64,000 nt of DNA from Bacteroidales bacterium. GTDB lineage: Bacteria > Bacteroidota > Bacteroidia > Bacteroidales > F082. The translations under genes and the position numbers were made by a program. The notes under the pieces were generated by a model that had not been told where the DNA came from, made no database searches, and saw only the letters and a program-made list of their open reading frames with translations. Positions 2,706 through 64,000 of this stretch are shown here, one piece after another (position 1 is the first letter of the stretch; each line of letters opens with the position of its first letter). The stretch is taken from contig JAFTXI010000041.1 of the NCBI GenBank assembly GCA_017461665.1, positions 40,797 through 104,796 of the forward strand. Reading direction: 5' to 3'.

Positions 2706-3699
2706 TATTTACTTTGTCGTCTATATATTTATTATTGAAACAATAATTTTTCAATACTTCTTCAATAAAAACATGCACCTTATCAGAGCATGAATCCGGG
2801 TAGAGAAGATGAACATTAGGACCTGCGTCTAATGTGTAACATATTGGGAGACAAGTTTCTTTTCTAAATTTAATTATTTCATTAATAATATTTATCGTAT
2901 TCGGTTCTTTAAGAGTGTAAGAAGGTGTCGAACTTGCCATCAAGTCGTGAAGTTGATTTGCCTCGTCTTCTGTAATTTTTATAAAACCTTCTAAATCACC
3001 TTGTTTTAGAATTATCAGTAAATCTTCGGTATTTTTTCTTGCAGAGGTATAACGTTTTTCAGCCATCGGATGATTATTCATCAAGGAATGTCCAGCCCTA
3101 CTCGAGACGCTTTTCTCCTTAGAACTCACAATTAAAATAGTATCATGATATGACTTAAAGACAGGATTAATCATCTCGCCGATTGGAATAGCATAATCGT
3201 TGGAACTATTTGACAATGATGGCGTTTCTCCCCACAAAGTCATTATTGGATAAACTGAACGCGCTGCGCTTCCCGAAGCCAAACGCGAGAGATACGAAGC
3301 TTCCTGTAGATCTATCTCTCCTCCTTTATATTTAATCTCCAATAAACAGAGAATCAAGGCACTCATGGAAGAAGCACTCGACGCTATGCCGGAAGAATGC
3401 GGGAAAGAATTGTAACTCTCTATATCTAAATGAAGTCCTTTAAGAAAAGAAAAATGCTCATCATTGGCTTGAATATATTTTTGTATCTTCTCTTTAAACG
3501 CTTGATTCTCTTTTCCTTCAAAATAAAAATTCATACCTTGCTCATCAGATTCATTGTAACTTACCTTAGTCTCGGTAAAACAATTCGTCAATGTAAAACT
3601 AATTGATGGATTGTTAGGAAGCTGATTTCCGTGCTTTCCCCAATATTTTACTATTGCAATATTAGATGGACTTCTTTTTATTATTAGTTTAGAGTTCAT
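2698..3699 (-). CDS. mvaD: Diphosphomevalonate decarboxylase
   Basis: ATP-dependent decarboxylation of mevalonate diphosphate to isopentenyl diphosphate. The 333 residues carry the diagnostic motifs: PSNIAIVKYWGK at 11-22, the phosphate-binding SSGIASSASSMSAL at 102-115, and DAGPNVHLLYP at 291-301 with the catalytic Asp. The length is slightly short for the bacterial family but all motifs are present. It lies between the GYDIA kinase (upstream, 80 bp of repeats between) and mevalonate kinase (8-bp overlap). The repeat-filled gap upstream suggests one transcript rather than a separate promoter, though none can be excluded. Confidence 0.95.
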   Translation of the reverse strand: MNSKLIIKRSPSNIAIVKYWGKHGNQLPNNPSISFTLTNCFTETKVSYNESDEQGMNFYFEGKENQAFKEKIQKYIQANDEHFSFLKGLHLDIESYNSFPHSSGIASSASSMSALILCLLEIKYKGGEIDLQEASYLSRLASGSAARSVYPIMTLWGETPSLSNSSNDYAIPIGEMINPVFKSYHDTILIVSSKEKSVSSRAGHSLMNNHPMAEKRYTSARKNTEDLLIILKQGDLEGFIKITEDEANQLHDLMASSTPSYTLKEPNTINIINEIIKFRKETCLPICYTLDAGPNVHLLYPDSCSDKVHVFIEEVLKNYCFNNKYIDDKVNNG

Positions 3700-3783
3700 A
3701 GTTTAAAGTTTAGAGTAGTTTAAAAGTTTAATGTTTTTAAGTTAATTATTAAGTTCTGAAATTTTGAGGTTTTGAAGTTTTAA
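3698..3783. repeat. Octad array filling the gap between two mevalonate genes
   Basis: Nearly the whole intergenic space is made of degenerate 8-bp units such as aagtttaa, aagttctg and aggttttg. It supplies the stop codon of the upstream GHMP kinase gene (complement of 3780-3782) and reaches the start codon of mvaD. No promoter motif is evident. Confidence 0.75.
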
Positions 3784-4730
3784 AGTACTATGTCTGAATA
3801 ATTAAAAATCACATTAAGACCTTTACTTTCAAAATAATTTTTAACTTTTGTTTTGTCCCAAGATGTCGCTGCCATGAAAAAGTCGCCGCCCCAAGCTCCC
3901 AAAGATTTCATTTCACCCTCAAAATCGGAGAAATATTTTTTTATTCTATTCTGTTCCAAGCAAGCCGCCATTATCTCTTCATGTACCTTCAAGAAATAAC
4001 AGAAGTCGCTGAGGTTCTGCACTTCCGGTAGTATTTTGCTTATCTCAGAAATTGCATTTATCTCAGTAGCGAAACTCTTCTCTTTTGCAAGAAAAGCCTT
4101 CACCTCGTTAGATGAACTCTGCTTATGTCCTTGATAAACAAAATAAAGATTGTCTTTAAACTCAGGATTGAAATTATCAATACTCACAAAAGGGCTGTTG
4201 ATTGTTGACTGTTGTCTGTTGACTTGATAAAATATTGGTGTTTCGGCTTTTGCGCAGGCTATGTCGTAGCCCGATCCTTTGAAAGTAGAAACCAACAACA
4301 GATAAGGATTTATTCCTGCCCATTCCGACACATTATTAATTAATGTAGAGCTACTCCCGAGTCCCCATTGCGGATCGAAATCTAAACAAGTAGTGAATTT
4401 ATAGTCGTGGGAGTCGGTGAAGATATTATCGTTTAATGATTTGACTTTAGATAAGATAATGGAAAGACGTTCTGCTTTTTCTTTATCGTCGGTTTTTAAG
4501 ACAGAGAAGTCATCTCTATTTAAAATTACTGAAAACCAAGGCTCTGAACTACGAACTATGTCTGTTGACTTTCTGAAAGCGTCCCAATAAATAAGGTTCT
4601 CGTTTGAATCTAAAGACTCCACCTCTAAGCTCTGACCTAATTTCAGAGGAAGAGCCAATGCCGTCGCTCCTTTCAAGACGAGATATTCGCCTGTCAACAA
4701 AAACTTACCGTTAGACTTGTAATAATTCAT
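3780..4730 (-). CDS. GYDIA-family GHMP kinase, candidate phosphomevalonate kinase
   Basis: 316-residue GHMP kinase with GKFLLTGEYLVL at 8-19, ATP loop WGLGSSSTL at 122-130, the family-naming GYDIA at 154-158, and a C-terminal GAWGGDFF motif. Proteins of this family are known in Bacteroidetes genomes next to mevalonate genes. Here it sits between HMG-CoA reductase and the decarboxylase, and no classical phosphomevalonate kinase is visible. I infer that it phosphorylates 5-phosphomevalonate, the step otherwise missing from this operon. Residues 171-178 (NRQQSTIN) come from a 7-bp-period repeat array. The GHMP fold is certain; the substrate is inference. Confidence 0.8.
   Translation of the reverse strand: MNYYKSNGKFLLTGEYLVLKGATALALPLKLGQSLEVESLDSNENLIYWDAFRKSTDIVRSSEPWFSVILNRDDFSVLKTDDKEKAERLSIILSKVKSLNDNIFTDSHDYKFTTCLDFDPQWGLGSSSTLINNVSEWAGINPYLLLVSTFKGSGYDIACAKAETPIFYQVNRQQSTINSPFVSIDNFNPEFKDNLYFVYQGHKQSSSNEVKAFLAKEKSFATEINAISEISKILPEVQNLSDFCYFLKVHEEIMAACLEQNRIKKYFSDFEGEMKSLGAWGGDFFMAATSWDKTKVKNYFESKGLNVIFNYSDIVL
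4194..4227 (-). repeat. Heptad array inside GYDIA kinase gene
   Basis: Units gctgttg, attgttg, actgttg, tctgttg and acttgat lie in tandem. On the coding strand they read VNRQQSTINS in frame. Only this strand is stop-free, since the other contains TGA. Confidence 0.8.
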
Positions 4731-4750
4731 AATTCATAATTTTGATGATA

Positions 4751-4805
4751 AGACGCATCAATTACATATTGTTTATTTTTAAAGGTGTAATTGGTACGTC
4801 TCTAC
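4751..4805 (-). repeat. GTAG-foot hairpin element (family B) encoding the end of HMG-CoA reductase
   Basis: On the minus strand the element begins gtagagacgtaccaattaca and ends with the complementary taattgatgcgtct, a long imperfect hairpin of about 55 bp. It is nearly identical to 20628-20681 and related to 41302-41358. Its first 40 bases encode the last 13 residues and the stop codon of HMG-CoA reductase. Confidence 0.8.
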
Positions 4806-15853: not shown

Positions 15854-15866
15854 TTCCGATAGAATC

Positions 15867-15900
15867 TTAGAACCTCAGAAATTGAGAATTTGAGAAATTG
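15867..15900. repeat. Octad array
   Basis: Units cttagaac, ctcagaaa, ttgagaat and ttgagaaa in tandem, directly before a terminator hairpin. No coding function is visible here. Confidence 0.65.
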
Positions 15901-15942
15901 AACGCGTCAAGTGCATCGTTTTTGTGCTTGACGCGTTTTCCT
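15901..15942 (+). terminator. Intrinsic terminator, hairpin family C copy 1
   Basis: Arms aacgcgtcaag (15901-15911) and cttgacgcgtt (15927-15937) pair perfectly and are followed by T-rich sequence. The loop region (tgcatcgttttt) is shared with the hairpin at 57951, where the arm differs by a paired C-to-T and G-to-A change. Confidence 0.8.
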
Positions 15943-16024: not shown

Positions 16025-17290
16025 ATGTCGAAGAATTTATATATCTTATCAATTACATTAATAACATTGTTTTTCTTTTCTTGTTCAAAGAAGGAAGAGC
16101 AGTTTATAGAGCCTGAAGTAGTTAAGGAATTACCTGTTGTCAATGTTGATAGTATCTTCATCGATCTTGATGCAGATATTATTGAGAAGAAAGCAGCGAG
16201 TGTCGATAAAGTTTTCAGTAATTTAAGAAGGAAGACCGGTTTCAACGGTACGGTGCTTTATGCTGAGCAAGGACGCATCGTTTATAACAAGGCGTGGGGC
16301 TTCCGTAACTTAAGAAAGAGGAGCGACAGTCTTCGCGTGGAAGATGTCTTCCAGCTTAGTTCGGTGTCGAAGATGTTTACTGCCGAGGCTGTTATGATTT
16401 TGAAGAACGAAGGTAAGATAGATTATGACGTCGATATCAGAGAATATATTCCGGAGTGGCCTTACGAAGGTATCACCACGCGACTTCTGCTGCATCATCG
16501 CTCGGGACTCTCGCGTTATGAGAGTTTGGCAGACGCCAAGTGGCCCGACAGGAAGATACCTTTCCTCAACGAAGACATGATAGCTTTTTACGTAGAGCAT
16601 CAGCCTGATCCTTATTTCAAACCTGATAATGGATTTAATTATAGCAATGTCAATTACGCGCTTTTGGCATCGATAGTGGAGCGCGTGTCGGGTATGTCGT
16701 TTGCCGATTATATGAGGACGAAGATCTTCGAGCCACTCTGCATGGACAATTCCTATATCTACGAGATGCGTCCCGACACCGCAGTATCTTTATATATTGA
16801 AGATGTGGTGCAAGGTTATTATATGGACCGTCGTCGTCCGATGCAGGCTCCCAACGAATATCTCAACGGCGTCAAAGGCGATAAGATGATGATGTCTAAC
16901 ACCGAAGATATGTTTAAGTTCTTGACAGCCGTCGATTATGGCTTGTTGTTGCCCGACTCTATACAAGACGAGGCTTTTGTGCCGGGCAGTCCTAAGAGCA
17001 GGAAACGCAAAGACAACTACGGCTTTGGCTGGAGGATACCAGGTAAATATTCAGGATGTTATTTCCATTACGGATGGTGGAAAGCCTATCGTTCTTTTGT
17101 CATAAGAGACGATGTGAATGACAAGACTATCATCATCTTGACGAATACCAACAAAGGACCGAGTTCGGATCATTTCTGGAATATCATCAAAGATGCGACT
17201 AACTCTTTGCCGCCGTCATCAGTGAATATCTCCTATTGGGAGACGAAGAACGGCAAACCGTTCCAGTATCGTTCTTATGTGAGTCGATGA
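16025..17290 (+). CDS. Serine hydrolase lipoprotein, beta-lactamase/AmpC-like fold
   Basis: 421-residue lipoprotein (lipobox FFFSC, Cys20) of the class C beta-lactamase/penicillin-binding-like esterase family. The catalytic residues are visible: S113-V-S-K116 (SxxK), Y206-S-N208 (YxN), and a third motif HYG near residue 353 in place of KTG. The family includes D-Ala-D-Ala peptidases and esterases as well as true lactamases, so resistance should not be assumed. It sits alone between a promoter motif and a convergent pseudogene. The last codons and stop fall in an 8-bp-period repeat. Confidence 0.9.
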   Translation: MSKNLYILSITLITLFFFSCSKKEEQFIEPEVVKELPVVNVDSIFIDLDADIIEKKAASVDKVFSNLRRKTGFNGTVLYAEQGRIVYNKAWGFRNLRKRSDSLRVEDVFQLSSVSKMFTAEAVMILKNEGKIDYDVDIREYIPEWPYEGITTRLLLHHRSGLSRYESLADAKWPDRKIPFLNEDMIAFYVEHQPDPYFKPDNGFNYSNVNYALLASIVERVSGMSFADYMRTKIFEPLCMDNSYIYEMRPDTAVSLYIEDVVQGYYMDRRRPMQAPNEYLNGVKGDKMMMSNTEDMFKFLTAVDYGLLLPDSIQDEAFVPGSPKSRKRKDNYGFGWRIPGKYSGCYFHYGWWKAYRSFVIRDDVNDKTIIILTNTNKGPSSDHFWNIIKDATNSLPPSSVNISYWETKNGKPFQYRSYVSR

Positions 17291-17373
17291 GTCAATGAGT
17301 CTATAAGTTTAGAAGTTCTTAAGTTTTAAAGTTCTTAAGTTCCCCAGAGTTCCAGAAATCCAGAGTTCCCCAA
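17281..17373. repeat. Octad array between convergent genes
   Basis: Units gagtcgat, gagtcaat, gagtctat, aagtttag, aagttctt and later cagagttc run in tandem. The array contains the serine hydrolase stop codon (17288-17290) and reaches into the 3' extension of the opposite pseudogene. Confidence 0.7.
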
Positions 17374-20684: not shown

Positions 20685-20757
20685 AGTCACCAAGTCTATG
20701 AGTTCTGAAGTTCTGAAGTTTTGAAGTTCTGGAGTTTTGAAGTTTTGAAGTTCCATT
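20685..20757. repeat. Octad array between convergent genes
   Basis: agttctga, agttctga, agttttga, agttctgg, agttttga, agttttga in tandem, up to the 3' end of recO. Confidence 0.75.
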
Positions 20758-20758
20758 T

Positions 20759-21541
20759 TCAATTCTCAAACACCGTCTTAAGTATCTCATATGATCCCAA
20801 TTCTCTCATGTCTTCGACGTGTAGCTTGTAATATGTAGCGATGTGTTCCAATAGTTTGCGCCTTTCCTTTAAAGAGAGTCTATGAGTCTCTAAGTCTGTG
20901 AGTCTATGAGAACTTGAGAACTTGAGAGAATCTCCTATAGAGTCACACGGACGTGTGACTTCTAAGATTTCATAAAAAGTTCTACTCAACTCGGGTTCCA
21001 TCTGATAGATGTCGTTTTGGTTTTTCTTGAAGTTACCGTCGAGGAGGTCGAAGCAGGAGCCTTCGGAATAGGTGTCGATGTTAGGGAAGAATCCTAAGTA
21101 GGCACTTAATCTTATTGCGAATAAGATAGGGAAGTTGACGTAGTCGTTTTCAGCTTCGTCTAACCATATCATGGCGTTGAAGATGAAGTCGAAGAGAGCG
21201 GTGTCGGTCTCGCTTTCGGTGATGGTTTTAGAGAGCAACTCGCTGATGAAAAAGATGATTGTCGATTTTTTTATGTTTGTCGTGATGTCCTTATAATAAT
21301 GAGCGAGCGACAGTTCTTTGATGAAAGAGAGGCTTCCGTTTCCCGATTCAGATACTATGTCTAAAAGCGTCATGTTTTGGAAGAGCGCTGCTTTCATCTT
21401 CGACTTCTTGCCAAAGACGTTTTTCACCATGAACGACAGCAATCCAGATTCTTCAGTCAGCATCTTCACGATGAGACTGTTGTCGCCGTATTTTATGGAA
21501 TGAAGCACTATGGCTCTCGTCTTGACTGTTGTCTTATTCAT
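20759..21541 (-). CDS. recO: DNA repair protein RecO
   Basis: RecO loads RecA onto SSB-coated DNA with RecR in the RecF pathway. The 260 residues begin with the typical OB-fold start (TKTRAIVLHSIKYGDNSLIVKMLTEESG). A helical C-terminal domain contains YLGFFPNIDTYSEGSCFDLLDG and ends with HVEDMRELGSYEILKTVF. A zinc-Cys cluster is not evident, as in many Bacteroidetes RecO proteins. Its ATG shares one base with the porZ stop (TAATG), so the two are coupled; recO next to porZ is a usual Bacteroidetes arrangement. Residues about 203-222 (LKFSSSHRLTDLETHRLSLK) are encoded by an octad repeat, making the protein a little longer than usual. Confidence 0.92.
   Translation of the reverse strand: MNKTTVKTRAIVLHSIKYGDNSLIVKMLTEESGLLSFMVKNVFGKKSKMKAALFQNMTLLDIVSESGNGSLSFIKELSLAHYYKDITTNIKKSTIIFFISELLSKTITESETDTALFDFIFNAMIWLDEAENDYVNFPILFAIRLSAYLGFFPNIDTYSEGSCFDLLDGNFKKNQNDIYQMEPELSRTFYEILEVTRPCDSIGDSLKFSSSHRLTDLETHRLSLKERRKLLEHIATYYKLHVEDMRELGSYEILKTVFEN
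20875..20934 (-). repeat. Octad array inside recO
   Basis: gagtctat, gagtctct, aagtctgt, gagtctat, gagaactt, gagaactt. It is read in frame as a Ser/Leu/Arg-rich insert in the C-terminal domain of RecO. Confidence 0.75.
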
Positions 21542-25523: not shown

Positions 25524-25548
25524 ATTGACAATTGACAGTTGACAATAA
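25524..25548 (+). repeat. Heptad array between gpmA and the phosphatase gene
   Basis: attgaca, attgaca, gttgaca, ata. It contains an in-frame TTG that mimics a start for the next gene. Confidence 0.75.
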
Positions 25549-25553
25549 CTTAT

Positions 25554-26258: not shown

Positions 26259-26963
26259 ATGAAGCCTTTTGTCGATATTCATACTCATCATAAAATCGAT
26301 AGAAACATAATCGCAATAAGAAACATTGATGTTGATAATCTCACCGACATCGATGTTTCTTCTTTTTATAGTATCGGAATACATCCCTGGAAATTAGGAA
26401 TTCAGGAGTTCTGGACTTCAGGACTTCAGGGAAATCAGAACCTTTTAGAATTCCTGGGATCCAGAATTTCTGGGATCCAGAAATCCAGAGATCCAAACTT
26501 CCTCGCATTAGGCGAATGTGGCTTAGACAGAGCGTGTTGTCACGATTTTGAAGCGCAGAAAAGACTATTCATAAAACATATCGAACTCTCGGAACAATAT
26601 GTGAAACCTCTTATAATTCACTGCGTAAGATCTTATCCAGACATTATTTCAATAAGGAAAGAGACAAAGGCAAAGCAAACTTGGATAATACACGGGTTTC
26701 AAGGCAACGAACAAACGACAGAGCAGCTGCTGAGACATGAAGAAATCTATCTTTCTATAGGCGAGGTCTTGTTTAAGAATGAAGATAAGGCGCGACGACT
26801 TTTTGAGATAATTCCTTCTGACAGATTGTTTTTCGAGACAGATGACTCTGAGAGGGAAATTTCCGACGTCTATGAGAAAGCAGCCTTGCTGAGTGGAAAA
26901 GACGTCGCTGTGTTTTGTAGAGATATTTTTAATAACTTTGAAAAAAATTTCGGAAAGATATGA
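26259..26963 (+). CDS. tatD: TatD-family metal-dependent hydrolase
   Basis: TIM-barrel DNase/hydrolase with H8-x-H10 (DIHTHH), the metal-bridging Glu in ALGECGLD, His in LIIHCVRSY and IIHGFQGN, and the final Asp in FFETDDSERE. All ligands are present, so it is probably active. Between SIGIHPWKLG and FLALGECGLD there is an unusual stretch rich in G/S/Q/L, encoded by an octad repeat of about 100 bp (26397-26497). Here a TatD protein would normally have only a short loop. The reading frame survives the insert. It sits between the phosphatase (no gap) and tcdA (4-bp overlap). Confidence 0.92.
   Translation: MKPFVDIHTHHKIDRNIIAIRNIDVDNLTDIDVSSFYSIGIHPWKLGIQEFWTSGLQGNQNLLEFLGSRISGIQKSRDPNFLALGECGLDRACCHDFEAQKRLFIKHIELSEQYVKPLIIHCVRSYPDIISIRKETKAKQTWIIHGFQGNEQTTEQLLRHEEIYLSIGEVLFKNEDKARRLFEIIPSDRLFFETDDSEREISDVYEKAALLSGKDVAVFCRDIFNNFEKNFGKI
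26397..26497 (+). repeat. Octad array inside tatD
   Basis: Units include ggacttca, ggacttca, gggatcca, gaatttct, gggatcca, gaaatcca, gagatcca. The array is translated in frame (for example FWTSGLQGNQ and SGIQKSRDP) and resembles the arrays at 58385 and 58633. Confidence 0.85.
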
Positions 26964-27673
26964 ATTGGTATTCAAGGACAGAATTATTAGTTGGAGAAGA
27001 AGGCTTTAAGAAATTAGCGTCGAGTCATGTCCTCGTCGTTGGACTTGGAGGCGTTGGAGCTTACGCTGCTGAGCAGTTGGCGCGTGCCGGGATAGGAAAG
27101 ATGACGATAGTGGATTGCGACACCGTCAACATCACGAATAAGAACAGACAGCTTCTCGCTTTGGACAGTACGCTCGGTCGCCCGAAGGTTGAGGTGATGG
27201 CAGAACGCATATGCGACATCAACCCCGACGTCGAGGTGATTCCGATAAACCAATATCTCAAAGACCAGACTATCATCGACTTGATGGAGCAGAAGTTCGA
27301 CTTCGTGGTAGATGCCATCGACACACTCGCGCCAAAGGTGTTCCTTTTATATTATGCCGTTCAAAACAAACAAAGAATCGTGAGTTGCATGGGAGCCGGC
27401 GGTAAGTTCGACCCGACAAAGATAGAGATTGCCGACATCTCGAAGTCGTGGAACTGTCGTCTCGCGTTTTATATTAGAAAACGACTTCATCGTCTCGGAA
27501 TACGCGAAGGAATTACGGTAGTTTTCTCGCCCGAGAAAGTTGCCGACAGCGCAGTGTCGATAGAAGAACAGACCGAGAATAAGATAGCGACAGTAGGAAC
27601 AATATCATACATGCCAGCCATCTTCGGATGTTTCTGCGCATCGCACGTGATAAGAGAAATTTTAGAAGTTTAG
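26960..27673 (+). CDS. tcdA: tRNA threonylcarbamoyladenosine dehydratase (ThiF/E1-like)
   Basis: 237-residue adenylyltransferase that cyclises t6A37 of tRNAs to ct6A. The nucleotide loop is GLGGVGAYAAEQLARAG (GxGGxG at 28-33), followed by VDCDTVNITNKNRQ, with Asp and Arg contacts for ATP. The later segment MGAGGKFDPTKIEIADISK...LAFYIRKRL is characteristic of TcdA/YgdL as against ThiF, MoeB or E1. It overlaps tatD by 4 bp (ATGA). The last codons and stop fall in an octad repeat. Confidence 0.92.
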   Translation: MNWYSRTELLVGEEGFKKLASSHVLVVGLGGVGAYAAEQLARAGIGKMTIVDCDTVNITNKNRQLLALDSTLGRPKVEVMAERICDINPDVEVIPINQYLKDQTIIDLMEQKFDFVVDAIDTLAPKVFLLYYAVQNKQRIVSCMGAGGKFDPTKIEIADISKSWNCRLAFYIRKRLHRLGIREGITVVFSPEKVADSAVSIEEQTENKIATVGTISYMPAIFGCFCASHVIREILEV

Positions 27674-27693
27674 AACTTTAGAATTTTAGAAAA
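27658..27693 (+). repeat. Octad array at the end of tcdA
   Basis: gtttagaa, ctttagaa, ttttagaa in tandem. The array contains the TAG stop codon of tcdA (27671-27673). Confidence 0.65.
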
Positions 27694-27736
27694 ATAACAG
27701 ACAAAAACTAATTTATAAACCTTTAAAATTTAAATT

Positions 27737-28141
27737 ATGGAAAATACATTTTCATCATCATTAAATGATGGTAGGGAGTATAGAGTGAAGATTGATGACT
27801 TAGCATTTGAATTTGCTAAAAAAGTCGTGTTTCTAAGGAAACGACTAATAGTATCAGAGGATAAAGAATATATTATCTCAAAACAACTTGTAAGATCGGG
27901 GACTAGTATAGCTGCAAATATAGCAGAGGCTGGGTTCCCTCAGTCTGATGCGGATTATGTTAGTAAAATGAGTATTGCTTTAAAAGAAGCAAATGAATCA
28001 AAATTATGGATACGTTTGTTAAGAGAATGTAACTACATCGCGGATGAGGAATATGAATCATTGTTACGAGATTGTGAAAAGATAATAAGAATTTTATTTA
28101 CAATAACCCAAAAGGTTAGGAAACGCCTTAATAATAAATAA
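27737..28141 (+). CDS. Four-helix bundle protein (S23/IVS family)
   Basis: 134 residues of the four-helix bundle family first seen as the protein encoded by intervening sequences in 23S rRNA genes. The signature is visible: LAFEFAKKVVFLRKRL, then SKQLVRSGTSIAANIAEA, then KMSIALKEANESKLWIRLL. Free-standing copies are common in Bacteroidetes and often scattered; the function is unknown, with RNA binding or a role in retrohoming suggested for relatives. No rRNA sequence surrounds it here. Flanked on both sides by octad repeats. Confidence 0.9.
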   Translation: MENTFSSSLNDGREYRVKIDDLAFEFAKKVVFLRKRLIVSEDKEYIISKQLVRSGTSIAANIAEAGFPQSDADYVSKMSIALKEANESKLWIRLLRECNYIADEEYESLLRDCEKIIRILFTITQKVRKRLNNK

Positions 28142-28204
28142 CTACTATTTCTAAAGTTCTAAAATTCTAAAGTTCTAAAATTCTAAAGTTCTTGAATTCT
28201 AAAA
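28142..28204. repeat. Octad array between convergent genes
   Basis: One of the cleanest arrays: ttctaaag and ttctaaaa alternate with exact 8-bp spacing, ending at the stop codon of the opposite gene. Confidence 0.85.
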
Positions 28205-28963
28205 TCATCCCGTCACTAAAAAAACCATATCGTCTTTTTCTTTGACTTTCTCTTCTATTCTTGAGATGAAATACGTGCGGCGAGAAGTCTGATTCAGTAG
28301 TTCTTGTGCCTTGTCGAACTCGCCGAGCTGACGATACATCTCGATGATATCCAAATTTGTCGATTCATATTCTTCGTCGTCGGGAGTATATCTGTCTTCT
28401 AAAAGATGAATCAAGATGCTGAGGTTATCTAAATAATCTTCATGATGTTGTTTGAACAACTCTAAACCTTGCAGCAGCTTCTTTCTGTTTCTGTACCAGA
28501 CTCTGAAACTCATCTCTTTAGAAGTATAACGCTCAATGTTTATCTGATATTTGTTGCGAATCAAGTCGTTGTAAGCCCACCAAAGAAGTCGGCGGAAATA
28601 AATCTCCTGATCTAAATTGTGTTCGGCTTTCTCTATGAAATGTTTGTAATGGTCAACGAGAGCCAATCTTCCCTTGTTGCTCTCGAAATGAATTCCGTAG
28701 AAGCGCCAGCTGTTCCAGGTGTAGTAGTTGGCGTCGGGTTTACTCTTCTTGATGTAAGGTTCTTCTGTCTTATCGATCCACGACCAATGGTTACAAGCAG
28801 GGCATACTATCATCTTCTGATTCTCTGTGAGATAGCCGTCGTTGAGGATTTTTCCATCGGAATATAAGATAGACTGGTTCACCATCGACGCTACCAAGAG
28901 ATGACCTTCCATCCACGATTTGCATCTCGGACATTGAATATAAAATGTTTCAAACTTTATCAT
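28205..28963 (-). CDS. Uncharacterised zinc-ribbon protein
   Basis: Family not recognised. The 252 residues open with a likely zinc ribbon: CPRC near residue 11 and CPAC near residue 55, separated by a small domain. A W/Y-rich helical part follows (NSWRFYGIHFE, FRRLLWWAYNDLIR, FRVWYRNRKKLLQGLELF), then a TPR-like C-terminal end (NLDIIEMYRQLGEFDKAQELLNQ). No signal peptide, so cytoplasmic. It starts 25 bp after the end of the RNase H gene on the same strand and is probably cotranscribed with it, which hints at a nucleic-acid-related role; that is inference only. Confidence 0.75.
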   Translation of the reverse strand: MIKFETFYIQCPRCKSWMEGHLLVASMVNQSILYSDGKILNDGYLTENQKMIVCPACNHWSWIDKTEEPYIKKSKPDANYYTWNSWRFYGIHFESNKGRLALVDHYKHFIEKAEHNLDQEIYFRRLLWWAYNDLIRNKYQINIERYTSKEMSFRVWYRNRKKLLQGLELFKQHHEDYLDNLSILIHLLEDRYTPDDEEYESTNLDIIEMYRQLGEFDKAQELLNQTSRRTYFISRIEEKVKEKDDMVFLVTG

Positions 28964-28988
28964 GATCGATATTTATTTAGACATAAGT

Positions 28989-29630
28989 TTATTTTCTTCC
29001 GAAGTCGGCAGGAATCTCGCCCCATACCTCCGTCTTCCATTTATAAATTGGCACTCTGAAACTATTCGTTTGCAGCCACTTCTCAGCCCATCGTATCACA
29101 TCGAAGAGAGCTTTGTTTTTATCGTTCTCAACAATCTTCGTCTTACATATTCCTTCTCTCACCCATTTCTGTGCATTGACAGAGTCGGAGTAAATGGGGT
29201 AGCTGAGTTTGTTTTTCTTCTGCCAAGCGAGACAATAAACTATCGCGAGAAACTCACCTATGTTGTTGGTGCCTTGTTCATAAACAGGACTCTTGAAGAG
29301 ATTGGTGTTTGTCTCCACAAAGACACCTTGAAACTCCATCTTACCTGGATTGCCCGAACAAGCCGCATCAACGGCGATGCTCTGACCAATAGGTCGCTGG
29401 TTTTCAGGAAGACTTTCATACGACTTGAACGAAGACTGTTGTCCGTTGTCTGTTGTCTTCTGACATGTAGCATAACCTGCGGTGAAAGCAGCCTCAGCAC
29501 TTTGCCGGTCGGGAAACGATTTATACTGAGCACCTTTGAAACCTTCAATCTGCATCTTGCATGAGTCCCATGTGCTGAAAACGCCGACCTGTCTGCCATT
29601 CCAAACTACGTAAAACTTGTTTTTTGCCAT
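28989..29630 (-). CDS. rnhA: Ribonuclease H with N-terminal viroplasmin domain
   Basis: Cleaves RNA in RNA-DNA hybrids. From the start MAKNKFYVVW (29630) there are 213 residues. A longer frame to 29654 would place the start upstream of the promoter motif. Residues 1-50 form the viroplasmin-like domain that binds hybrid (FYVVWNGRQVGVF...YKSFPDRQSAEAAF). The RNase H domain has Asp88 (VDAACSGNPG), Glu126 (NIGEFLAI) and Asp149 (SDSVNA), with a final Asp near the C-terminus (IPADFGRK). The linker (about 57-70, QKTTDNGQQSSFKS) is encoded by a heptad repeat. The architecture is that of eukaryote-like RNase H1, frequent in Bacteroidetes. Confidence 0.92.
   Translation of the reverse strand: MAKNKFYVVWNGRQVGVFSTWDSCKMQIEGFKGAQYKSFPDRQSAEAAFTAGYATCQKTTDNGQQSSFKSYESLPENQRPIGQSIAVDAACSGNPGKMEFQGVFVETNTNLFKSPVYEQGTNNIGEFLAIVYCLAWQKKNKLSYPIYSDSVNAQKWVREGICKTKIVENDKNKALFDVIRWAEKWLQTNSFRVPIYKWKTEVWGEIPADFGRK
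29434..29466 (-). repeat. Heptad array in the interdomain linker of rnhA
   Basis: gactgtt, gtccgtt, gtctgtt, gtcttct. On the coding strand it gives TTDNGQQSS, similar to the inserts in the two GHMP kinase genes. Confidence 0.8.
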
Positions 29631-29634
29631 AACG

Positions 29635-31296: not shown

Positions 31297-31324
31297 TGAC
31301 AAAAGATCAATGGCAAAAGTTTTT

Positions 31325-31350
31325 AAATAATTGTAAATTGTACATTGTAA
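31325..31350 (+). repeat. Heptad array before atpF
   Basis: aattgta, aattgta, cattgta, aatta, ending about 14 bp before the atpF start codon. Confidence 0.6.
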
Positions 31351-31363
31351 ATTATAAATAATT

Positions 31364-41301: not shown

Positions 41302-41358
41302 AGAGACGCAGCAATTACATCTTGTTAATCTTCATTGGTGTAATTGATACGTCTCTAC
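41302..41358 (-). repeat. GTAG-foot hairpin element (family B), copy 3
   Basis: On the minus strand it begins gtagagacgtatcaattaca and ends taattgctgcgtctct. The outer stem matches the copies at 4751 and 20628, while the inner 20 bases differ. Confidence 0.75.
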
Positions 41359-41366
41359 ATAATTAT

Positions 41367-41396
41367 CAATTGTTAATTGTCAATTGTATATTGTCT
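41367..41396. repeat. Heptad array next to the fabD stop
   Basis: caattgt, taattgt, caattgt, atattgt in tandem between the S41 protease and fabD genes. Confidence 0.65.
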
Positions 41397-42277
41397 CACA
41401 CTGTTGCGCTTGAGAGTACGAGTTCTGTTCCAGCTTTCTTGAATAAGCCTTGTAATATAGTTCCTGGTCCTACTTCGACCACTTCAGTGAGACCGTTAGC
41501 TATCATGTTACCCATTGTCTGAGTCCAGCGTACTGGAGCTGTCAGTTGTGATATGAGGTTAGCCTTGATGATGTCAGGAGAAGTGACGGCTTGACCTGTA
41601 ACGTTTTGATATATTGGGCAGATGCCTTCGTTGAATTTAGTGTTTTCTATTGCTTGAGCGAGTTCTACGCGAGCCGGCTCCATGAGAGGGCTGTGGAAGG
41701 CGCCTCCTACCTGAAGAGGGAGAGCGCGTTTAGCGCCGGCTTCTTTAAGGAGCTGACATGCAATCTCAACGCCTTTCAAGCTGCCTGAAACGACGACTTG
41801 TCCGTTGCAGTTGTAGTTGGCTGCTATCACGACTTCGTCTTTTATTGAAGCGCAGACTTCTTCTATCTTGGCGTTATCTAAGCCGAGGACGGCTGCCATT
41901 GTACCTGGATTCTTTTCGCAGGCCGCCTGCATGGCGTTGGCGCGTGCTGCTACGAGACGCAATCCGTCTTCAAACTGAAGTGTGTTGTTGGCTACCAATG
42001 CTGAGAACTCTCCTAAAGAATGACCTGCTACCATGTCAGGCTTGAAATCGTCGAGCATCTTAGCCAATATGACTGAATGAAGGAATATGGCTGGCTGAGT
42101 GACCTTAGTCTGTTTTAAGTCTTCGGCAGTACCTTCAAACATAATGTCTGTTATTGAAAATCCGAGGATGTCGTTAGCTTTTTTAAACATATCCTTCGCC
42201 TTTGGGAACTTGTCGTATAAGTCTTTTCCCATTCCAACAAATTGGGCACCCTGTCCCGGAAATACGTATGCTTTCAT
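41396..42277 (-). CDS. fabD: Malonyl-CoA:ACP transacylase
   Basis: Loads malonyl groups onto acyl carrier protein for fatty acid synthesis. The 293 residues include the start YVFPGQGAQFVGMGKDL, the active-site Ser87 in GHSLGEFSAL, the substrate Arg in ARANAMQ, and His in GGAFHSPLM. Full length and normal. A family A hairpin lies just upstream, and the gene follows the Bax-inhibitor-like gene on the same strand. Confidence 0.97.
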   Translation of the reverse strand: MKAYVFPGQGAQFVGMGKDLYDKFPKAKDMFKKANDILGFSITDIMFEGTAEDLKQTKVTQPAIFLHSVILAKMLDDFKPDMVAGHSLGEFSALVANNTLQFEDGLRLVAARANAMQAACEKNPGTMAAVLGLDNAKIEEVCASIKDEVVIAANYNCNGQVVVSGSLKGVEIACQLLKEAGAKRALPLQVGGAFHSPLMEPARVELAQAIENTKFNEGICPIYQNVTGQAVTSPDIIKANLISQLTAPVRWTQTMGNMIANGLTEVVEVGPGTILQGLFKKAGTELVLSSATV

Positions 42278-57950: not shown

Positions 57951-57992
57951 ACGCGTTAAGTGCATCGTTTTTTGTACTTAACGCGTTTTTCT
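57951..57992 (+). terminator. Intrinsic terminator of the T9SS operon, hairpin family C copy 2
   Basis: Arms acgcgttaag (57951-57960) and cttaacgcgt (57977-57986) followed by a T-rich tract. The loop matches the hairpin at 15901 and the stem differs by one compensated pair. Confidence 0.8.
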
Positions 57993-58004
57993 TTTAAACT
58001 TCAG

Positions 58005-58036
58005 AACCTCAGAATCTCAAAACCTCAGAACTTTTT
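58005..58036. repeat. Octad array between terminator and promoter
   Basis: cagaacct, cagaatct, caaaacct, cagaactt; same position relative to terminator and promoter as the array at 15944. Confidence 0.65.
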
Positions 58037-58053: not shown

Positions 58054-60048
58054 ATGAAAATACTCCTGTTTTACATATTATTCTTAGCCTTCGGCGGTCA
58101 ACAGACAATAACTTCGACTCTGACTTCGACTCTGACTTCGGTCGCTGAGCCTGTCGAAGCGCCGGGCGATGTTGACGTGCCTTCGACAAGCTCAGGCACC
58201 TGTACGAACACATTGAATGTGTCCACGTATATAATATGCAATAAGGACGTATGCGATACGTCCCTACGTAGTGACTCGGTGACTTACTACAAATCCCAAC
58301 TCCTCATTGCCGACTCCTTATATAAAAACTATCTCCCTCAATATAACTTTGACGAAGTTAAAGCTGCCGTAACGTTCTTTGAAAGGACTTCTGGACTTCT
58401 GGACTTCTGGACTTCAGGAACTCAGGAACTCAGGACTTCTGGACATCAGGGTCCCAGAAATCCAGAGATCCAGAACTCCGGAGATCCAGAACTCCAGAAC
58501 TCCGGAGATCCAGAGTTCCTAAGCGCTTGTGCTAAAGCGCACTACTACCACGCCGTAGGTCTCACTGAACGCGATGATGTCGTTGGCGCCTGCGAACATT
58601 ATCTGAGAGCTTTGGAGATTATGGAAGAATATTGGAATTCTGGAATTCAGGACTTCAGGACTTCAGGATCCCAGAAATCCAGAGATCCAGAAATCCAAAA
58701 CCCAGAAATTCGTTTCCTCGCCTTAATTTACAATCGTCTCGGAAGATTGTTCTACAACGAAAACTATTGCGAGCTCGCAATTACAAAATACATGAAAGCA
58801 TTGAAATATGTTGAGGTGATTGGGGAAAAATCCTTTAAGGCTAATGTGCTTAAAGAGTTAGGCAACTCATATCAGCTTGCCAATAGACCCGATAGTGCTT
58901 TGTATTATTATAATGAATCGTTAAAGTACAATTCGAGTTTACCGAATAAGTTGGATGTTGAGAAAAGCATTGCACAAATTTTGTTTTATAAAGGAGATAA
59001 GGATACGGCGTACTCTTTAATTAGGAATAATCTGAATATGATAGATAATGAAAATGTCAGATATTCATATTATGCGACTTTAGGTAAAATGTATCAAGAA
59101 GATGAAGTATATGATTCGGCAATATATTATTTAGAAAAAAGTATTGAGAGTACTATCTATTACACAAGAGTGACATCAGCTATGCAATTGTCGGCAATTT
59201 TTGACTCTTTGGGTAATTATGAAAAACAAGCTTATTATGACATATTTGTTTCAAAGATGTCAGTCGTCAATTTTAATAAAGGTGTAGAGAACACTCAACT
59301 TCATACATTGTACATTGATTATTGTAACAAAAAAACTGAAAGAGAAAGATTAAAATCACGAAACAACAATATTATAATTATACTTTCGGTTATTCTATTA
59401 ATCTTTATGCTAATTGTATTCATATTTGCCATATTCCAAAATAGACATAATAAAATATCTTCTATATTAAAAGACAAAGAGTTATTGATTGCTCAAATTG
59501 ATAATGAAATAAAGATCAAAGAAAAACATATTAGCGATTTGGAATTTAAACAAAAGCTAAATGATGGAAAAATAAGAAAAAAGAATAATGAAATAAAAGA
59601 GAAAGATGAGCTATTAATAAAATACCGTCGTGAATTAACTGAACTGAAGAACAAATTGGAAAGGTTACTGTCCGAGTGTTCAGATCTAAATAAGTTTCTT
59701 CAATCGGAGATATGTTCAAGTATTTTAAATAACATAGATGATTTGAATAAAAAGAATATCGATTCTTCAGAACTTGGAAAATTGAAACAGGAACAGTTTA
59801 TTTTGCTGTTAAGATCTGCAAACATTTATCTGAACAATTTGATAGATGACATCTCGAACCAATATCAAAAATTAAAAAATGACGACTTATACTATCTATG
59901 TTTGATAATTTTAGGTCTTAACGACAAGCAAATTTCTTCTTTGTTTGGGGTTACTTATAATACGATAAAGATAAGAAAAAGAAAAATATGTTCTATATTG
60001 GGCATTAATAATGACGATTTATATAGTTTTTTGATGGGTAAGATTTAG
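58054..60048 (+). CDS. Membrane-anchored TPR-HTH transcriptional regulator with repeat-derived inserts
   Basis: 664 residues. A short hydrophobic N-terminus (ILLFYILFLAF) is followed by a long repeat-derived segment (about 15-70) and TPRs between about 75 and 420 (AHYYHAVGLTERDDVVGACEHYLRALEIMEEYW, DSALYYYNESLKYNSS). One membrane helix (about 438-458, IIIILSVILLIFMLIVFIFAIF), a coiled coil (about 468-560) and a C-terminal LuxR-like helix-turn-helix (about 612-664, GLNDKQISSLFGVTYNTIKIRKRKI) complete it. The architecture is that of Bacteroidetes regulators that sense in the periplasm and bind DNA inside. Residues about 111-155 and 194-218 are read from octad arrays, and two family A hairpins lie near codons 51-70. 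Target genes are likely the three genes downstream. Confidence 0.8.
   Translation: MKILLFYILFLAFGGQQTITSTLTSTLTSVAEPVEAPGDVDVPSTSSGTCTNTLNVSTYIICNKDVCDTSLRSDSVTYYKSQLLIADSLYKNYLPQYNFDEVKAAVTFFERTSGLLDFWTSGTQELRTSGHQGPRNPEIQNSGDPELQNSGDPEFLSACAKAHYYHAVGLTERDDVVGACEHYLRALEIMEEYWNSGIQDFRTSGSQKSRDPEIQNPEIRFLALIYNRLGRLFYNENYCELAITKYMKALKYVEVIGEKSFKANVLKELGNSYQLANRPDSALYYYNESLKYNSSLPNKLDVEKSIAQILFYKGDKDTAYSLIRNNLNMIDNENVRYSYYATLGKMYQEDEVYDSAIYYLEKSIESTIYYTRVTSAMQLSAIFDSLGNYEKQAYYDIFVSKMSVVNFNKGVENTQLHTLYIDYCNKKTERERLKSRNNNIIIILSVILLIFMLIVFIFAIFQNRHNKISSILKDKELLIAQIDNEIKIKEKHISDLEFKQKLNDGKIRKKNNEIKEKDELLIKYRRELTELKNKLERLLSECSDLNKFLQSEICSSILNNIDDLNKKNIDSSELGKLKQEQFILLLRSANIYLNNLIDDISNQYQKLKNDDLYYLCLIILGLNDKQISSLFGVTYNTIKIRKRKICSILGINNDDLYSFLMGKI
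58097..58159 (+). repeat. Long repeat, copy 1 (heptads plus 12-mers plus GAGCCTGTCGAAG)
   Basis: Starts gtcaacagacaataa, continues with 12-bp units (cttcgactctga) and ends gagcctgtcgaag. The 55 bases from 58105 recur exactly at 60559-60613. Here the repeat is coding (TSTLTSTLTSVAEPVE). Confidence 0.85.
58139..58201 (+). repeat. Imperfect hairpin with TTCGACA/TGTCGAA arms
   Basis: gagcctgtcgaag (58147-58159) faces cttcgacaagctc (near 58182-58194), with one G-T type mismatch, around a spacer of about 22 bp. Only the left arm is present in the copy at 60601. Confidence 0.65.
58206..58224 (+). repeat. Family A hairpin inside the regulator gene
   Basis: gaacacattgaatgtgtcc, read in frame as NTLNVST. 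Confidence 0.7.
58245..58263 (+). repeat. Family A hairpin inside the regulator gene, variant
   Basis: ggacgtatgcgatacgtcc, with paired changes relative to the main form. It is read in frame as KDVCDTS. Confidence 0.7.
58385..58519 (+). repeat. Octad array inside the regulator gene, large
   Basis: About 17 units, first ggacttct-like, then agatccag/aactccgg-like. Translated as GLLDFWTSGTQELRTSG and on to SGDPELQNSGDPEF. Confidence 0.9.
58633..58709 (+). repeat. Octad array inside the regulator gene, second
   Basis: About nine units of the same family, translated as NSGIQDFRTSGSQKSRDPEI. Very similar in sense and order to the tatD insert at 26397. Confidence 0.85.
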
Positions 60049-60147: not shown

Positions 60148-60519
60148 ATGAAAAGAGTATTTTTAGCAATCGTGCTTTTTCAGATTAGCATCTTAATGGT
60201 AGAAGCAAAGCAGACTATAATTAACGACAAGGTGGATGTTTGTGCAACGCACTCTAACACCTACAATGGTACCGAATCACGTTCCGAAACCATCTCAGCT
60301 GACATTACCGGTCACACTCTAACAATTACCTTCAACGATAATGTGGGAATAGCACATATCGTTATTAAGGATTCTAACGGTGTTTATATAGACAGAGAAA
60401 ATGTCTTTTCGACACCTGATTATGCCACCTTCATTATAGATGATGCCGGCTACTACAGAATGGACATCACTCTAAGCAACGGTGAGCAGTATTATGGATA
60501 TTTTAGAGTTGAAAATTGA
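60148..60519 (+). CDS. DUF3244 domain protein
   Basis: 123 residues: signal peptide (cut near VEAK) and a single small beta-sandwich of the DUF3244 type (SADITGHTLTITFNDNVGIAHIVIKDSNGVYIDREN ... GYYRMDITLSNGEQYYGYFRVEN). The family is restricted mostly to Bacteroidetes and has no proven function. It has its own promoter, 99 bp after the regulator gene, and is followed by a repeat-rich gap. Confidence 0.85.
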   Translation: MKRVFLAIVLFQISILMVEAKQTIINDKVDVCATHSNTYNGTESRSETISADITGHTLTITFNDNVGIAHIVIKDSNGVYIDRENVFSTPDYATFIIDDAGYYRMDITLSNGEQYYGYFRVEN

Positions 60520-60543
60520 AAACTGAAAATGGAAAGTTGTAGA

Positions 60544-61783: not shown

Positions 61784-63451
61784 ATGCGCATCAGATTAAT
61801 ACTTGTAGTCATACTGTCCATTGTTTTGGTGGACAGTATGATGTCTCAAGAATGGGAGTTCAAAACTGATAGTGGTCTCGATCATCCTTATTACAGGAAC
61901 TTCACCGATGCTATAGAGTTGCAGGACGGTAATATAGTGGTGAATACGCCTTTAAACTTTAACATACCAGGCCACGCAAGTGTACCTCATCCTGGTTTGA
62001 TGAAAATCTCTACCGATGGTACTGAGTTGGCAAGAAACAATTATTTCCGTCCATCATATTGTTCCATATCCTACAATCAGATTCTTGAAAACGAAGAAGG
62101 AGAGTTGTTTGCATTGATGACGTACAGTCCTGACCATGAAAGATCGTCGGAAAATTATTTTATGAATTTCGATAATCCTCCATCTGAGGCTGTTTTAGGC
62201 TTATACAAATTAGACGAAGAACTTAATATTGTTGAAAGCTACGAACATTACATTCCTATTGACACCACAGAAAATTTCGGTTTCGATCCGTCGTGGGATT
62301 ATATGCCGAACGAAAATTGTGGACGCTTATATCTGTTTACATCTTTTATCGATAATGTTGGAGATATTGTAGGTGCTTTCTTCAAATGTCCAACTTTTCA
62401 TAGTCCTAATCAAGCAGAACATGATTCCTTATTTTTTTTTAAGATGAATTTTGAAGGTGAAATACTGCAAATGAAAGGTTTTGAATATCCTAAAGCCGGC
62501 ATAAACACTTTTACTTACAGAAGAAATTGCATGAGCGAAACAGATTTACATTATATCTTATATCAGGTAGATGGCGTAAATGGTTATGATACAGGTGGTG
62601 AAGCAATGTATATGGATAAGGAATTTAATCTTGTTAATATAAAACCAATGCGCCATCATAGTACAGAGCATCCGGATTATGGAGGTGCTGTTGATTATAT
62701 TTCAGTAGTTAGAAGTAGTAGTGATATGCTTTATTTAGCTGCAAGATATCACGAGGGTAGCAACGGTGGTAAGTATGATTGCGTATTATACGAAATGGAT
62801 GACAACCTGAATGATTCTGCGGAGATATTACCTATAATCAAACATATACGAAGAGGTGAGCAAAAACAGTATGATTATCATGCTTTTAACAATGCAATCG
62901 TTCTAAAAGAATGCGGTTCATTGATTTTTGTTTATAATATGGATGTTGATGGCTTATATCATAACACTGACTCGTGGGTTGTGATAGAACATTTGAATTC
63001 TAATCTTGAAACTATATCAAGTGTGTATTACACTTCAGATAATGATGAAATACATACGGTTGTAAATTCCATATTATCAACAAAAGAAGAAGATTTGTTG
63101 CTTGTTGGGACTAGTCATGGTTTAGAAGGAGATAAATCATGGTGTTTCGTTACCAAATTCCCAGCATCAGCTTTTCTCAACATCGAAGAAGCTCACGCTC
63201 ACAACTTAAAACTCGCTGTGGCTTATCCAAATCCTGGCGGAGATGTTATGAATATCAGAACCGGCTTGCGTAATGCAACATTATCTGTTTATGATATGCA
63301 AGGAAGAAAGATTCATGAACAGGAAATCACAGATGAGATTACAAGCGTAGATGCTTCAAGATGGGAGAATGGAACGTATGTTTGGAAATTAGGAATTAGG
63401 AATGAGGAATTAGGAATGAAGTGTGTTGAGAGTGGGAAGTGGGTGAAGTAG
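61784..63451 (+). CDS. T9SS-exported propeller-like protein with CTD
   Basis: 555 residues: signal peptide (LILVVILSIVLVDSMMSQ) and a repeated beta region about 25-465 with blades of the type DGNIVVNTPL, LMKISTDGTELARNNYF and EGELFALMTYS. A type A CTD follows (YPNPGGDVMNIRTG, LSVYDMQGRKIHEQEI, NGTYVWKLGI). The end is unusual: after WKLG it continues IRNEELGMKCVESGKWVK, encoded partly by heptads aattagg, so the sorting signal is extended. A perfect 11-bp inverted repeat (61810-61840) lies within the signal-peptide codons. The layout resembles the frameshifted gene at 17335-18789. Confidence 0.82.
   Translation: MRIRLILVVILSIVLVDSMMSQEWEFKTDSGLDHPYYRNFTDAIELQDGNIVVNTPLNFNIPGHASVPHPGLMKISTDGTELARNNYFRPSYCSISYNQILENEEGELFALMTYSPDHERSSENYFMNFDNPPSEAVLGLYKLDEELNIVESYEHYIPIDTTENFGFDPSWDYMPNENCGRLYLFTSFIDNVGDIVGAFFKCPTFHSPNQAEHDSLFFFKMNFEGEILQMKGFEYPKAGINTFTYRRNCMSETDLHYILYQVDGVNGYDTGGEAMYMDKEFNLVNIKPMRHHSTEHPDYGGAVDYISVVRSSSDMLYLAARYHEGSNGGKYDCVLYEMDDNLNDSAEILPIIKHIRRGEQKQYDYHAFNNAIVLKECGSLIFVYNMDVDGLYHNTDSWVVIEHLNSNLETISSVYYTSDNDEIHTVVNSILSTKEEDLLLVGTSHGLEGDKSWCFVTKFPASAFLNIEEAHAHNLKLAVAYPNPGGDVMNIRTGLRNATLSVYDMQGRKIHEQEITDEITSVDASRWENGTYVWKLGIRNEELGMKCVESGKWVK
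61809..61841 (+). promoter_or_regulatory. Hairpin in the signal-peptide codons of the cargo gene
   Basis: catactgtcca (61810-61820) and tggacagtatg (61830-61840) pair perfectly around a 9-nt loop, and one more base pair is possible outside. The hairpin starts 26 bp after the start codon and could slow or gate translation; the role is inference. Confidence 0.55.
63395..63426 (+). repeat. Heptad array in the CTD of the cargo gene
   Basis: aattagg, aattagg, aatgagg, aattagg, aatgaag, translated as LGIRNEELGMK. Confidence 0.8.
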
Positions 63452-63505
63452 AACTTTAGAACTTTAGAATTTTAGAACTTTAGAATCTGAGAAACTGAGA
63501 AATCA
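63452..63505. repeat. Octad array after the last cargo gene
   Basis: agaacttt, agaacttt, agaatttt, agaacttt, agaatctg, agaaactg, agaaatc. Confidence 0.75.
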
Positions 63506-63510
63506 TGTAT

Positions 63511-63529
63511 GGACACATTGAATGTGTCC
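63511..63529. repeat. Short GGAC hairpin (family A)
   Basis: ggacacattgaatgtgtcc, identical to the copy at 57908. Confidence 0.8.
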
Positions 63530-63550
63530 TAAAAATCTAAAAATTATAGA

Positions 63551-63604
63551 GGCGTTTCAGTGTTTCCAACAAAAATGGATAAACATTGAAACGTCTTTTT
63601 TTTT
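63551..63604 (+). terminator. Intrinsic terminator of the module
   Basis: ggcgtttcagtgttt (63551-63565) pairs with aaacattgaaacgtc (63581-63595) with two G-T wobbles, followed by nine T residues. Confidence 0.75.
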
Positions 63605-64000
63605 AGAATCTTAGAACTTTAGAATCTCAGAACTTCAAAATCTCGGTGACTTGGTATCTCTCGCAAAGTCGCAGAGTATCGCAAAGATGACTTGTCAAGA
63701 CTCTGCGCTGCTTTGCGACTCTGCGAGTTGTTAGAACTTGTAATTTTGGAAGTTGTAGAGATTCAATTATTTACCCCCCCCGATTTTCTTAAAAAACATT
63801 AAAAAATGTTTGGAAAATTGAAATAAAAATATAAACTTTGCGGAACATAATAGAGAAGTAAAAAAAGATATGGAGAATAAGAAAAACGACATACGAATTT
63901 TAGGCAAGAACAAGTTCATAGAACGTATATCTCGATGAATATAGCATTTATCGAGAGTTATTTTTAAAGAAATAAATCAAACTACTGATGTGGAAAAATG
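63602..64000. other. Repeat-rich region without a convincing gene
   Basis: It starts with an octad array (63602-63650). An imperfect inverted repeat of about 29 bp per arm follows, built from cgcaaagt/cgcagagt units (63660-63688 and 63698-63726). There is then a run of eight C residues (63774-63781) in AT-rich DNA. From 63870 there is a 22-codon frame (MENKKNDIRILGKNKFIERI...) ending at 63938; the next frame continues LDEYSIYRELFLKK, so a small or frameshifted gene running off the window is possible. A weak promoter-like AAACTTTG lies at 63833. Confidence 0.4.

Follow-up and report, generated by a model that had tools for sequence, protein, structure and literature searches.

What are the degenerate 8-bp repeats (octads) that fill gene ends and enter coding regions in a Bacteroidales bacterium, and to what do they belong? 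The question arises from a 64-kb stretch of contig C34 (GenBank JAFTXI010000041.1), called the window at its full length, in a draft genome of 2.49 Mb and 94% completeness (G000 in our set). A preliminary description of this DNA had set the octads apart as a class of their own, a view that our data did not bear out: 7-bp arrays (heptads) of the same kind occur in the genome and its relatives, and both kinds flank genes of the S23 (IVP) family as matched inverted arms. That description had overlooked the 7-bp arrays, the hairpins formed by inverted arms in tatD and a regulator gene, and an S23 gene between two octad arrays. We lean slightly towards the reading that octads are one variant of the repeats belonging to S23 genes, made or maintained by the S23 protein at the DNA level.

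S23 genes between inverted arrays

The window element (locus L119) adjoins a TcdA-like protein gene and the open reading frame (ORF) 28205-28963, and does not lie within a 23S rRNA gene. Its parts are as follows.

27737..28141, + strand: S23 / 23S rRNA IVP gene, four helix bundle protein of 134 aa (PF05635, TIGR02436), enclosed by inverted octad arrays
27654..27701, + strand: left octad arm of TTTAGAAC words, containing the stop codon of the TcdA-like gene at 27673
28143..28206, - strand: right octad arm, inverse of the left arm (inverted local score 30), reaching the convergent gene end at 28205

The gene matched PF05635 (E 5.2e-25), TIGR02436 (E 7.2e-28) and PDB entry 2rld (E 1.1e-26). Among seven near relatives, the S23 gene was found at this site only in G089; G138 carries a gene-less inverted octad array of a different word, G094 has octads followed by what appears from its sequence to be the start of the gene, G134 has a short array, and G097, G129 and G119 have no array. 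The whole G000 genome contains seven PF05635 matches, four of which are flanked by arrays (L109, L114, L119, L124). A divergent copy at one site common to G000 and G097 (L129, L134) has no arrays and is possibly domesticated. Two further matches stand beside reverse transcriptases (C58 49824-51520 and C31 4539-6227) and are likely diversity-generating retroelements (DGRs); at the former (L133) just one flank carries an array. These counts cover the flanks of six of the seven matches, all but the one on C31.

Across the genus, the usual S23 layout was an upstream array of 7- or 8-bp words, a short leader, the ORF, and the same words inverted right after the stop codon. Arrays of the same period stood on both flanks at 30 of 48 loci (period 7 at 20, period 8 at 10) and on at least one flank at 42, in a set that leaves out L108 and L127 (contig ends). 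Because the loci were chosen by best score, the set is tilted towards typical S23 proteins, and several of its loci are orthologous to one another. Among 623 control ORFs, arrays adjoined 125 on one or both sides and 8 on both, and three of these 8 were S23 genes; all three S23 genes within the control sample had both-flank arrays, leaving 5 of 620 non-S23 ORFs and none of the 63 ORFs in the S23 size range (100-150 aa). Other best periods were seen at the S23 flanks of L100 (near 6) and L130 (near 9).

Words differed between sites and species, yet the arms matched across each gene. The median inverted arm match was 24 within a locus versus 9 between loci (11 in direct orientation), and 42 of the 48 loci exceeded the between-loci 95% point when inverted, versus 16 in direct orientation. 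At orthologous sites (20 groups, 55 loci), the median arm match was 21 within a locus versus 17 across species, and the within-locus value was higher in 38 of 55 loci (p 5e-6, although loci that share a site are not independent); in some groups, such as L092/L095/L096/L098, the two did not differ. Thus, both arms change together at orthologous sites. The S23 ORFs look constrained, to judge from codon-position differences of 0.16/0.095/0.42 over 11 pairs, and same-site S23 proteins were nearest neighbours in 47 of 55 cases, which together suggest that the units persist while their arrays turn over.

Array period goes with the clade of the S23 protein. In a quickly built tree of 88 such proteins with many unresolved forks (76 with a clear period and 12 without; L108, L129, L133, L134 and L221 left out), the period changed 4 times versus about 20 times after shuffling, and none of 500 shuffles was as low. 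With one locus per site in Bacteroidota, 4 changes were counted versus 11.6 shuffled, and within five genomes of the genus 2 versus 8.7, or 2 versus 6.3 with one locus per site (0 of 300 shuffles as low in each case). Because both periods occur in one genome, the period is not a host trait.

This layout extends beyond the genus. PF05635 was present in 157 of 198 Bacteroidota genomes, and at the 30 best loci, one per genome and with no control set, the best lag between 4 and 13 was 7 on both flanks or 8 on both flanks in 20, the inverted score being at least 15 in 19 and L152 and L154 matching better in direct orientation. Thirteen of 34 matched plasmid records were sampled (nine from Cyanobacteriota and one each from Spirochaetota, Chloroflexota, Bacillota and Bacteroidota); the best lag was 7 on both flanks in 12 of them, the exception being the Bacillota record with a broken ORF. 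Since all 13 records are titled complete sequences, assembly error is an unlikely cause. Viral contigs yielded nine S23 loci by alignment, and two of the four viewed carry inverted heptads (L234, L237). On the plasmids, an S23 gene lies between cas2 and cas1 in Anabaena (L217 524-2315) and another just ahead of cas1 in Pseudanabaena (L224 971-2318), and further S23 genes lie within restriction or methylase operons (L221, L223, L225).

Arrays in the window, the genome and related species

The octads had been reported at no fewer than 14 sites, and this stood far above chance. A lag-8 scan of the window gave 14 places, with which the period-8 arrays of Tandem Repeats Finder (TRF) coincided. A stricter 24-base test gave 14 lag-8 and 8 lag-7 regions versus none of either in one shuffled copy, and no region at lags 5, 9, 10, 11 or 13. 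The remaining arrays are listed below; strands are given where one was assigned, and dG values stand beside the mean of 100 single-base shuffles.

26387..26506, + strand: octad hairpin in frame in tatD, in a genus-variable loop; dG -52.5, shuffled mean -30.8
58378..58523, + strand: octad hairpin in frame in the tetratricopeptide repeat (TPR) regulator; dG -78.0, shuffled mean -43.5
58621..58709, + strand: second in-frame octad hairpin of the regulator; dG -33.5, shuffled mean -23.1
20873..20931, - strand: octad array in frame in recO, in a variable stretch with a longer insert in G089 (lag scan)
20692..20757: octad array downstream of recO, in a convergent gap (lag scan)
17275..17347: octad array between convergent ORFs, with both stop codons within (lag scan)
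3744..3793: octad array where ORF 3780-4730(-) ends (lag scan)
15859..15903: octad array directly past ORF 14153-15853 (lag scan)
57990..58035: octad array ahead of the regulator gene (lag scan)
63442..63505: octad array with the stop codon at 63451 (lag scan)
63600..63637: octad array (lag scan)
4190..4229: heptad array, CTGTTGA (lag scan and TRF)
29427..29469: heptad array, GTTGTCT (lag scan)
31323..31368: heptad array, AATTGTA (lag scan and TRF)
41356..41399: heptad array, AATTGTC (lag scan and TRF)
60497..60542: heptad array, TTGAAAA (lag scan and TRF)
63378..63428: heptad array, AATTAGG (lag scan and TRF); words of this family also flank the S23 gene at L114

The placement of octads in gaps between convergent genes (starts at 17275, 20692 and 28143) and inside recO, tatD and the regulator agreed with the preliminary description, as did the peptides SQKSRDP and IQKSRDP in the translations of tatD and the regulator. 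Its proposal that arrays provide stop codons held for several ORFs: the stops at 17290(+), 27673(+), 63451(+), 3780(-) and 17335(-) lie inside arrays, and three more, at 28205(-), 28141(+) and 20759(-), either overlap the edge of an array or come within 3 bases of one. The gene ending at 17290 belongs to the Pfam family Beta-lactamase, consistent with a serine hydrolase, and the best NCBIfam match of gene 26960-27673 was TcdA, under the cut-off of that model; a label of "GYDIA kinase" was unconfirmed, as ORF 28205-28963 had no Pfam or NCBIfam match at E 0.001. The coding arrays are indeed in frame, but the 24-base, eight-residue period once credited for this gives no protection by itself: as 8 is not divisible by 3, any stop codon in the repeated unit appears in all frames; the frame is kept because the words in these genes, as translated, contain no stop codons.

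The lag-8 signal was present genome-wide. An octad pattern had 303 matches in the whole of G000 versus 7 for the reversed pattern, and 464 kb of this genome contained 61 lag-8 and 87 lag-7 arrays versus 4 and 5 after block shuffling, the remaining lags from 5 to 12 giving 1-18 arrays versus 2-6. After merging, 147 arrays were placed: 45 fell within ORFs of 100 codons or more, 4 lay at edges, and the others stood between ORFs that were co-directional (77), convergent (16) or divergent (5). Some of the ORFs used may be spurious. Each 12-mer from the S23 arms of G000 recurred 2.15 times elsewhere in the 464 kb; 12-mers from the arms of G089, another species with the same words, recurred 1.59 times in G000, and those from three further species 0.11-0.32 times. 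Among 26 genus members sampled, octad pattern matches numbered 303 in G000, 228 in G089, 120 in G094, 29 in G097 and 0-4 in the other 22. The reversed control pattern gave 7, 5, 58 and 12 matches in the four named genomes, respectively, so that the G094 count is less clean. This control pattern also matched 35 times in G096, and arrays with other words are possible there and in G094.

Gene order from 24777 to 34946 is conserved in seven relatives, extending to recO in five of them, and array sites can therefore be compared between species. The same loops and gene ends in the relatives were empty or held other arrays; the variability anticipated between strains was thus seen at orthologous sites, in a comparison made between species. 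Octads occupy the tatD loop of the window and of G138; G134 has heptads there, G089 and G097 have both kinds, several species of higher GC have a different repeat, and the loop is short in others. Among six species compared at recO, G089 has a longer stretch, which contains both heptads and octads. In the regulator family, variable segments largely made of repeats hold repeats that differ by species and paralogue. At the tatD loop of the GC-richer species (L048, L050-L054), another palindromic repeat lies in frame (HFDWSEAEWRN...), and a tatD relative with 62% identity occurs in a Bacteroidales metagenome-assembled genome from cattle colon (L041). A search with the regulator (window 58054-60048) gave 31 matches in G000, of which several lie at contig ends and some are to the arrays within the regulator, and none in the viral contigs searched.

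Strong folding was seen for the tatD and regulator arrays, whose octad arms are inverted; for the recO array and the non-genic arrays, folding was weak or no better than in shuffles. Hairpin terminators were rejected as an explanation of the intergenic octads, as most non-genic window arrays fold no better than shuffles and only 16 of 147 have a strong inverted partner. A scan of the window with Rfam at gathering scores gave no match. Other repeats in the window include a hexamer (CAGACT) tandem array at 48527-48572, a 15-bp (TCCCCAATCCTCAAC) tandem array at 48626-48688, and dispersed repeats at 57909, 58144, 58208, 60598 and 63512 (REP-like GCTGAGCCTGTCGAAG and palindrome ACACATTGAATGTGT), partly in the N-terminal coding region of the regulator.

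How the arrays may arise

The association of S23 genes with arrays was observed; mechanism and mobility we infer. The S23 protein would engage the arrays as DNA and promote their growth as well as copying from arm to arm and from site to site, with the protein setting the spacing but not the sequence. On this view, the solo arrays and hairpins, among them the ones in tatD, recO and the regulator, would be gene-less products or relics, and in-frame arrays may persist since only stop-free words survive in tolerant loops. The median arm length was about 5.7 units, and two solved S23 relatives have five chains per PDB entry; we can only guess that each array serves one pentamer. Held more tentatively, at rather less than even chances, is the broader idea that S23 proteins are molecular rulers: small oligomeric four-helix writers of arrays with free sequence and a period (7 or 8 bp) specific to the protein, placed as matched inverted arms about their own genes and as genome-wide solos, and a common cause of heptads in cyanobacteria, in Bacteroidota and in rRNA intervening sequences (IVSs).

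Genomes with and without S23 genes were also compared. Lag-7/8 arrays numbered 2 in 360 kb from 18 S23-free Bacteroidota genomes (present in 2 of them) and 37 in 352 kb from 18 S23-rich ones with 11-16 PF05635 matches (present in 11), after 2 of 20 genomes per side had been dropped because the contig was absent or too short. The S23-free genomes (L165-L183) contained 68 lag-9 arrays in their 360 kb, and the method therefore detects other repeats.

Several observations weigh against a causal role of the S23 protein. The evidence that it may bind or build arrays is indirect, and arrays on one flank are frequent near non-S23 genes as well (125 of 623 control ORFs). The solo arrays far outnumber the seven PF05635 matches of G000, and 16 of 147 have a strong inverted partner above the cut-off (1 of 147 in the control). 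On the plasmids, direct flank matches beat inverted ones at 4 of 13 loci (L217, L220, L224, L228), and just 7 of 12 had an inverted arm score beyond the 95% point of comparisons between loci. In the genome comparison, 15 of the 37 arrays came from one genome, and the two sets differ in GC and are phylogenetically unmatched. The same-site nearest neighbours (47/55) point to slow vertical inheritance over frequent jumping. The period may also track the protein merely through joint inheritance of a linked array and gene, although the replacement of words while the period remains 7 or 8 argues against plain shared descent. Finally, reverse transcriptase matches were present in all four octad-rich genomes (four in G000, on C58, C31, C26 and C44, and one each in G089, G094 and G097), which slightly lowered our confidence; a role of reverse transcriptase in the arrays is possible. 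G129 had two such matches, and none was found on the window contig C34 or in G138, G134 and G119, which have 11, 4 and 6 PF05635 matches (two of these drafts are less than 85% complete).

The disproportion between 147 merged arrays in 464 kb and seven PF05635 matches in the whole genome would suit the reverse order of events, in which inverted short-period arrays arise independently and S23 elements preferentially insert into them, as would the gene-less inverted octad array of another word at the window's S23 site in G138. The near absence of arrays from S23-free genomes and the tracking of protein clade by period in the five two-period genomes (2 versus 8.7 shuffled changes) speak the other way, and we consider this order unlikely. 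A similarly low probability is assigned to array growth by polymerase slippage with linked inheritance, where template switching at palindromes homogenises the arms and S23 is a passive passenger. Physical linkage alone could make the period follow the protein tree, and arm mismatches without RNA-level bias suit copying at the DNA level; this account leaves unexplained the scarcity of arrays in the sampled S23-free genomes, why S23 rather than other small genes is enclosed (0/63 ORFs of 100-150 aa), and why the period stays fixed at 7 or 8 despite word turnover.

We find it quite improbable that the arms are RNA stems cut by RNase III, by which the S23 unit would be trimmed from operon mRNAs: S23 units do lie between co-directional genes (HsdS/HsdR in L221; helicase/methylase in L223), and passages of PMC4990558 describe a Coxiella 23S rRNA IVS with an S23-family ORF, terminal inverted repeats (28-bp stem), strain-variable numbers of tandem heptamers just upstream of the ORF, and excision by RNase III, but 57 stems contained 103 G-U versus 90 A-C mismatches (p 0.39), with no sign of selection for a coding-strand RNA stem. 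These stems remained after L108, L127, L129, L134 and near-copies had been removed (69 left) and 12 fell below the stem-score cut. The lack of a G-U excess leaves RNA-stem selection unsupported and suits DNA-level copying. An origin from repetitive extragenic palindromic (REP) elements and their transposases (RAYT) was rejected, as no Y1 transposase match (PF01797) was found in G000 (draft, 94% complete), G097, G129 or G119; G089, G094, G134 and G138 had 1-2 matches each.

Relation to known systems

The window unit resembles 23S rRNA IVSs in its S23-type ORF, present in one IVS class (PF05635, TIGR02436), and its complementary termini (score 30, L119). It differs in lying between protein genes, outside any 23S rRNA gene, and in that its arms are themselves tandem arrays whose words vary per copy, with many gene-less arrays in the genome; excision by RNase III is a feature of the rRNA IVSs, and the window unit is known from its sequence.

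Rickettsia palindromic elements are palindromic repeats in frame in coding genes with a fixed consensus; compared with this general description, only period and inversion are constant here. The DGR accessory protein Avd, which we take to be the PF05635 members beside reverse transcriptases, shares the Pfam family with the window element, on whose contig no reverse transcriptase match was found. We know of no established role of S23/four-helix-bundle genes outside DGRs. The Y1 transposase, the hallmark of REP/RAYT elements, was not found in the G000 draft. Unlike insertion sequences and miniature inverted-repeat transposable elements, the arrays have no fixed terminal inverted repeat, and their arms match far more within than between copies; empty orthologous sites exist, and array growth blurs the junctions.

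Cyanobacterial heptad repeats are presumably those named STRR (short tandemly repeated repetitive sequences). The likeness lies in dispersed degenerate 7-bp units (87 lag-7 arrays in 464 kb versus 5 shuffled) and the difference in the period of 8, rather than a unit length of 7, of the window's octad arrays. Heptanucleotide tandem repeats are described in cyanobacteria, Xanthomonas and Beggiatoaceae, mostly intergenic, degenerate or exact, and some inverted (passages of PMC4692102 and PMC4679880). Parts of PMC4679880 also report heptads in five Bacteroidetes, with no evident mechanism of horizontal spread and regulatory roles only suggested; according to passages of PMC4692102, no detailed literature on heptads is available, and an idea based on the polymerase footprint is cited for slippage growth. 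The terms "S23" and "four helix" have no occurrence in the main text of these two papers, and octads do not feature in the passages cited. In the P6b stem of the Nostoc trnL intron, both arms consist of 7-nt words in two classes, with 7-nt indels and class shifts (passages of PMC4476775); word turnover on both arms is shared with the S23 arrays, but P6b belongs to a group I intron and is not a dispersed element, and an S23 gene is unmentioned in those passages. Satellites derived from repeats of 6-8 nt are mentioned in part of PMC6749651.

In the open-licence literature, we found no paper linking S23 genes to such arrays outside rRNA. The novelty is the S23-array link as one system, with a protein-linked period and free sequence, both halves of which were already known; we regard the joined system as categorically distinct, since every near family has a defining feature that it lacks. 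The link looks like a general rule. Joining S23 genes and heptad repeats turns two puzzles into one testable system and suggests an origin, open to testing, for short repeats whose cause is unsettled in several phyla. Some of the variable intergenic sequence and protein loops of such genomes may also stem from S23-linked arrays.

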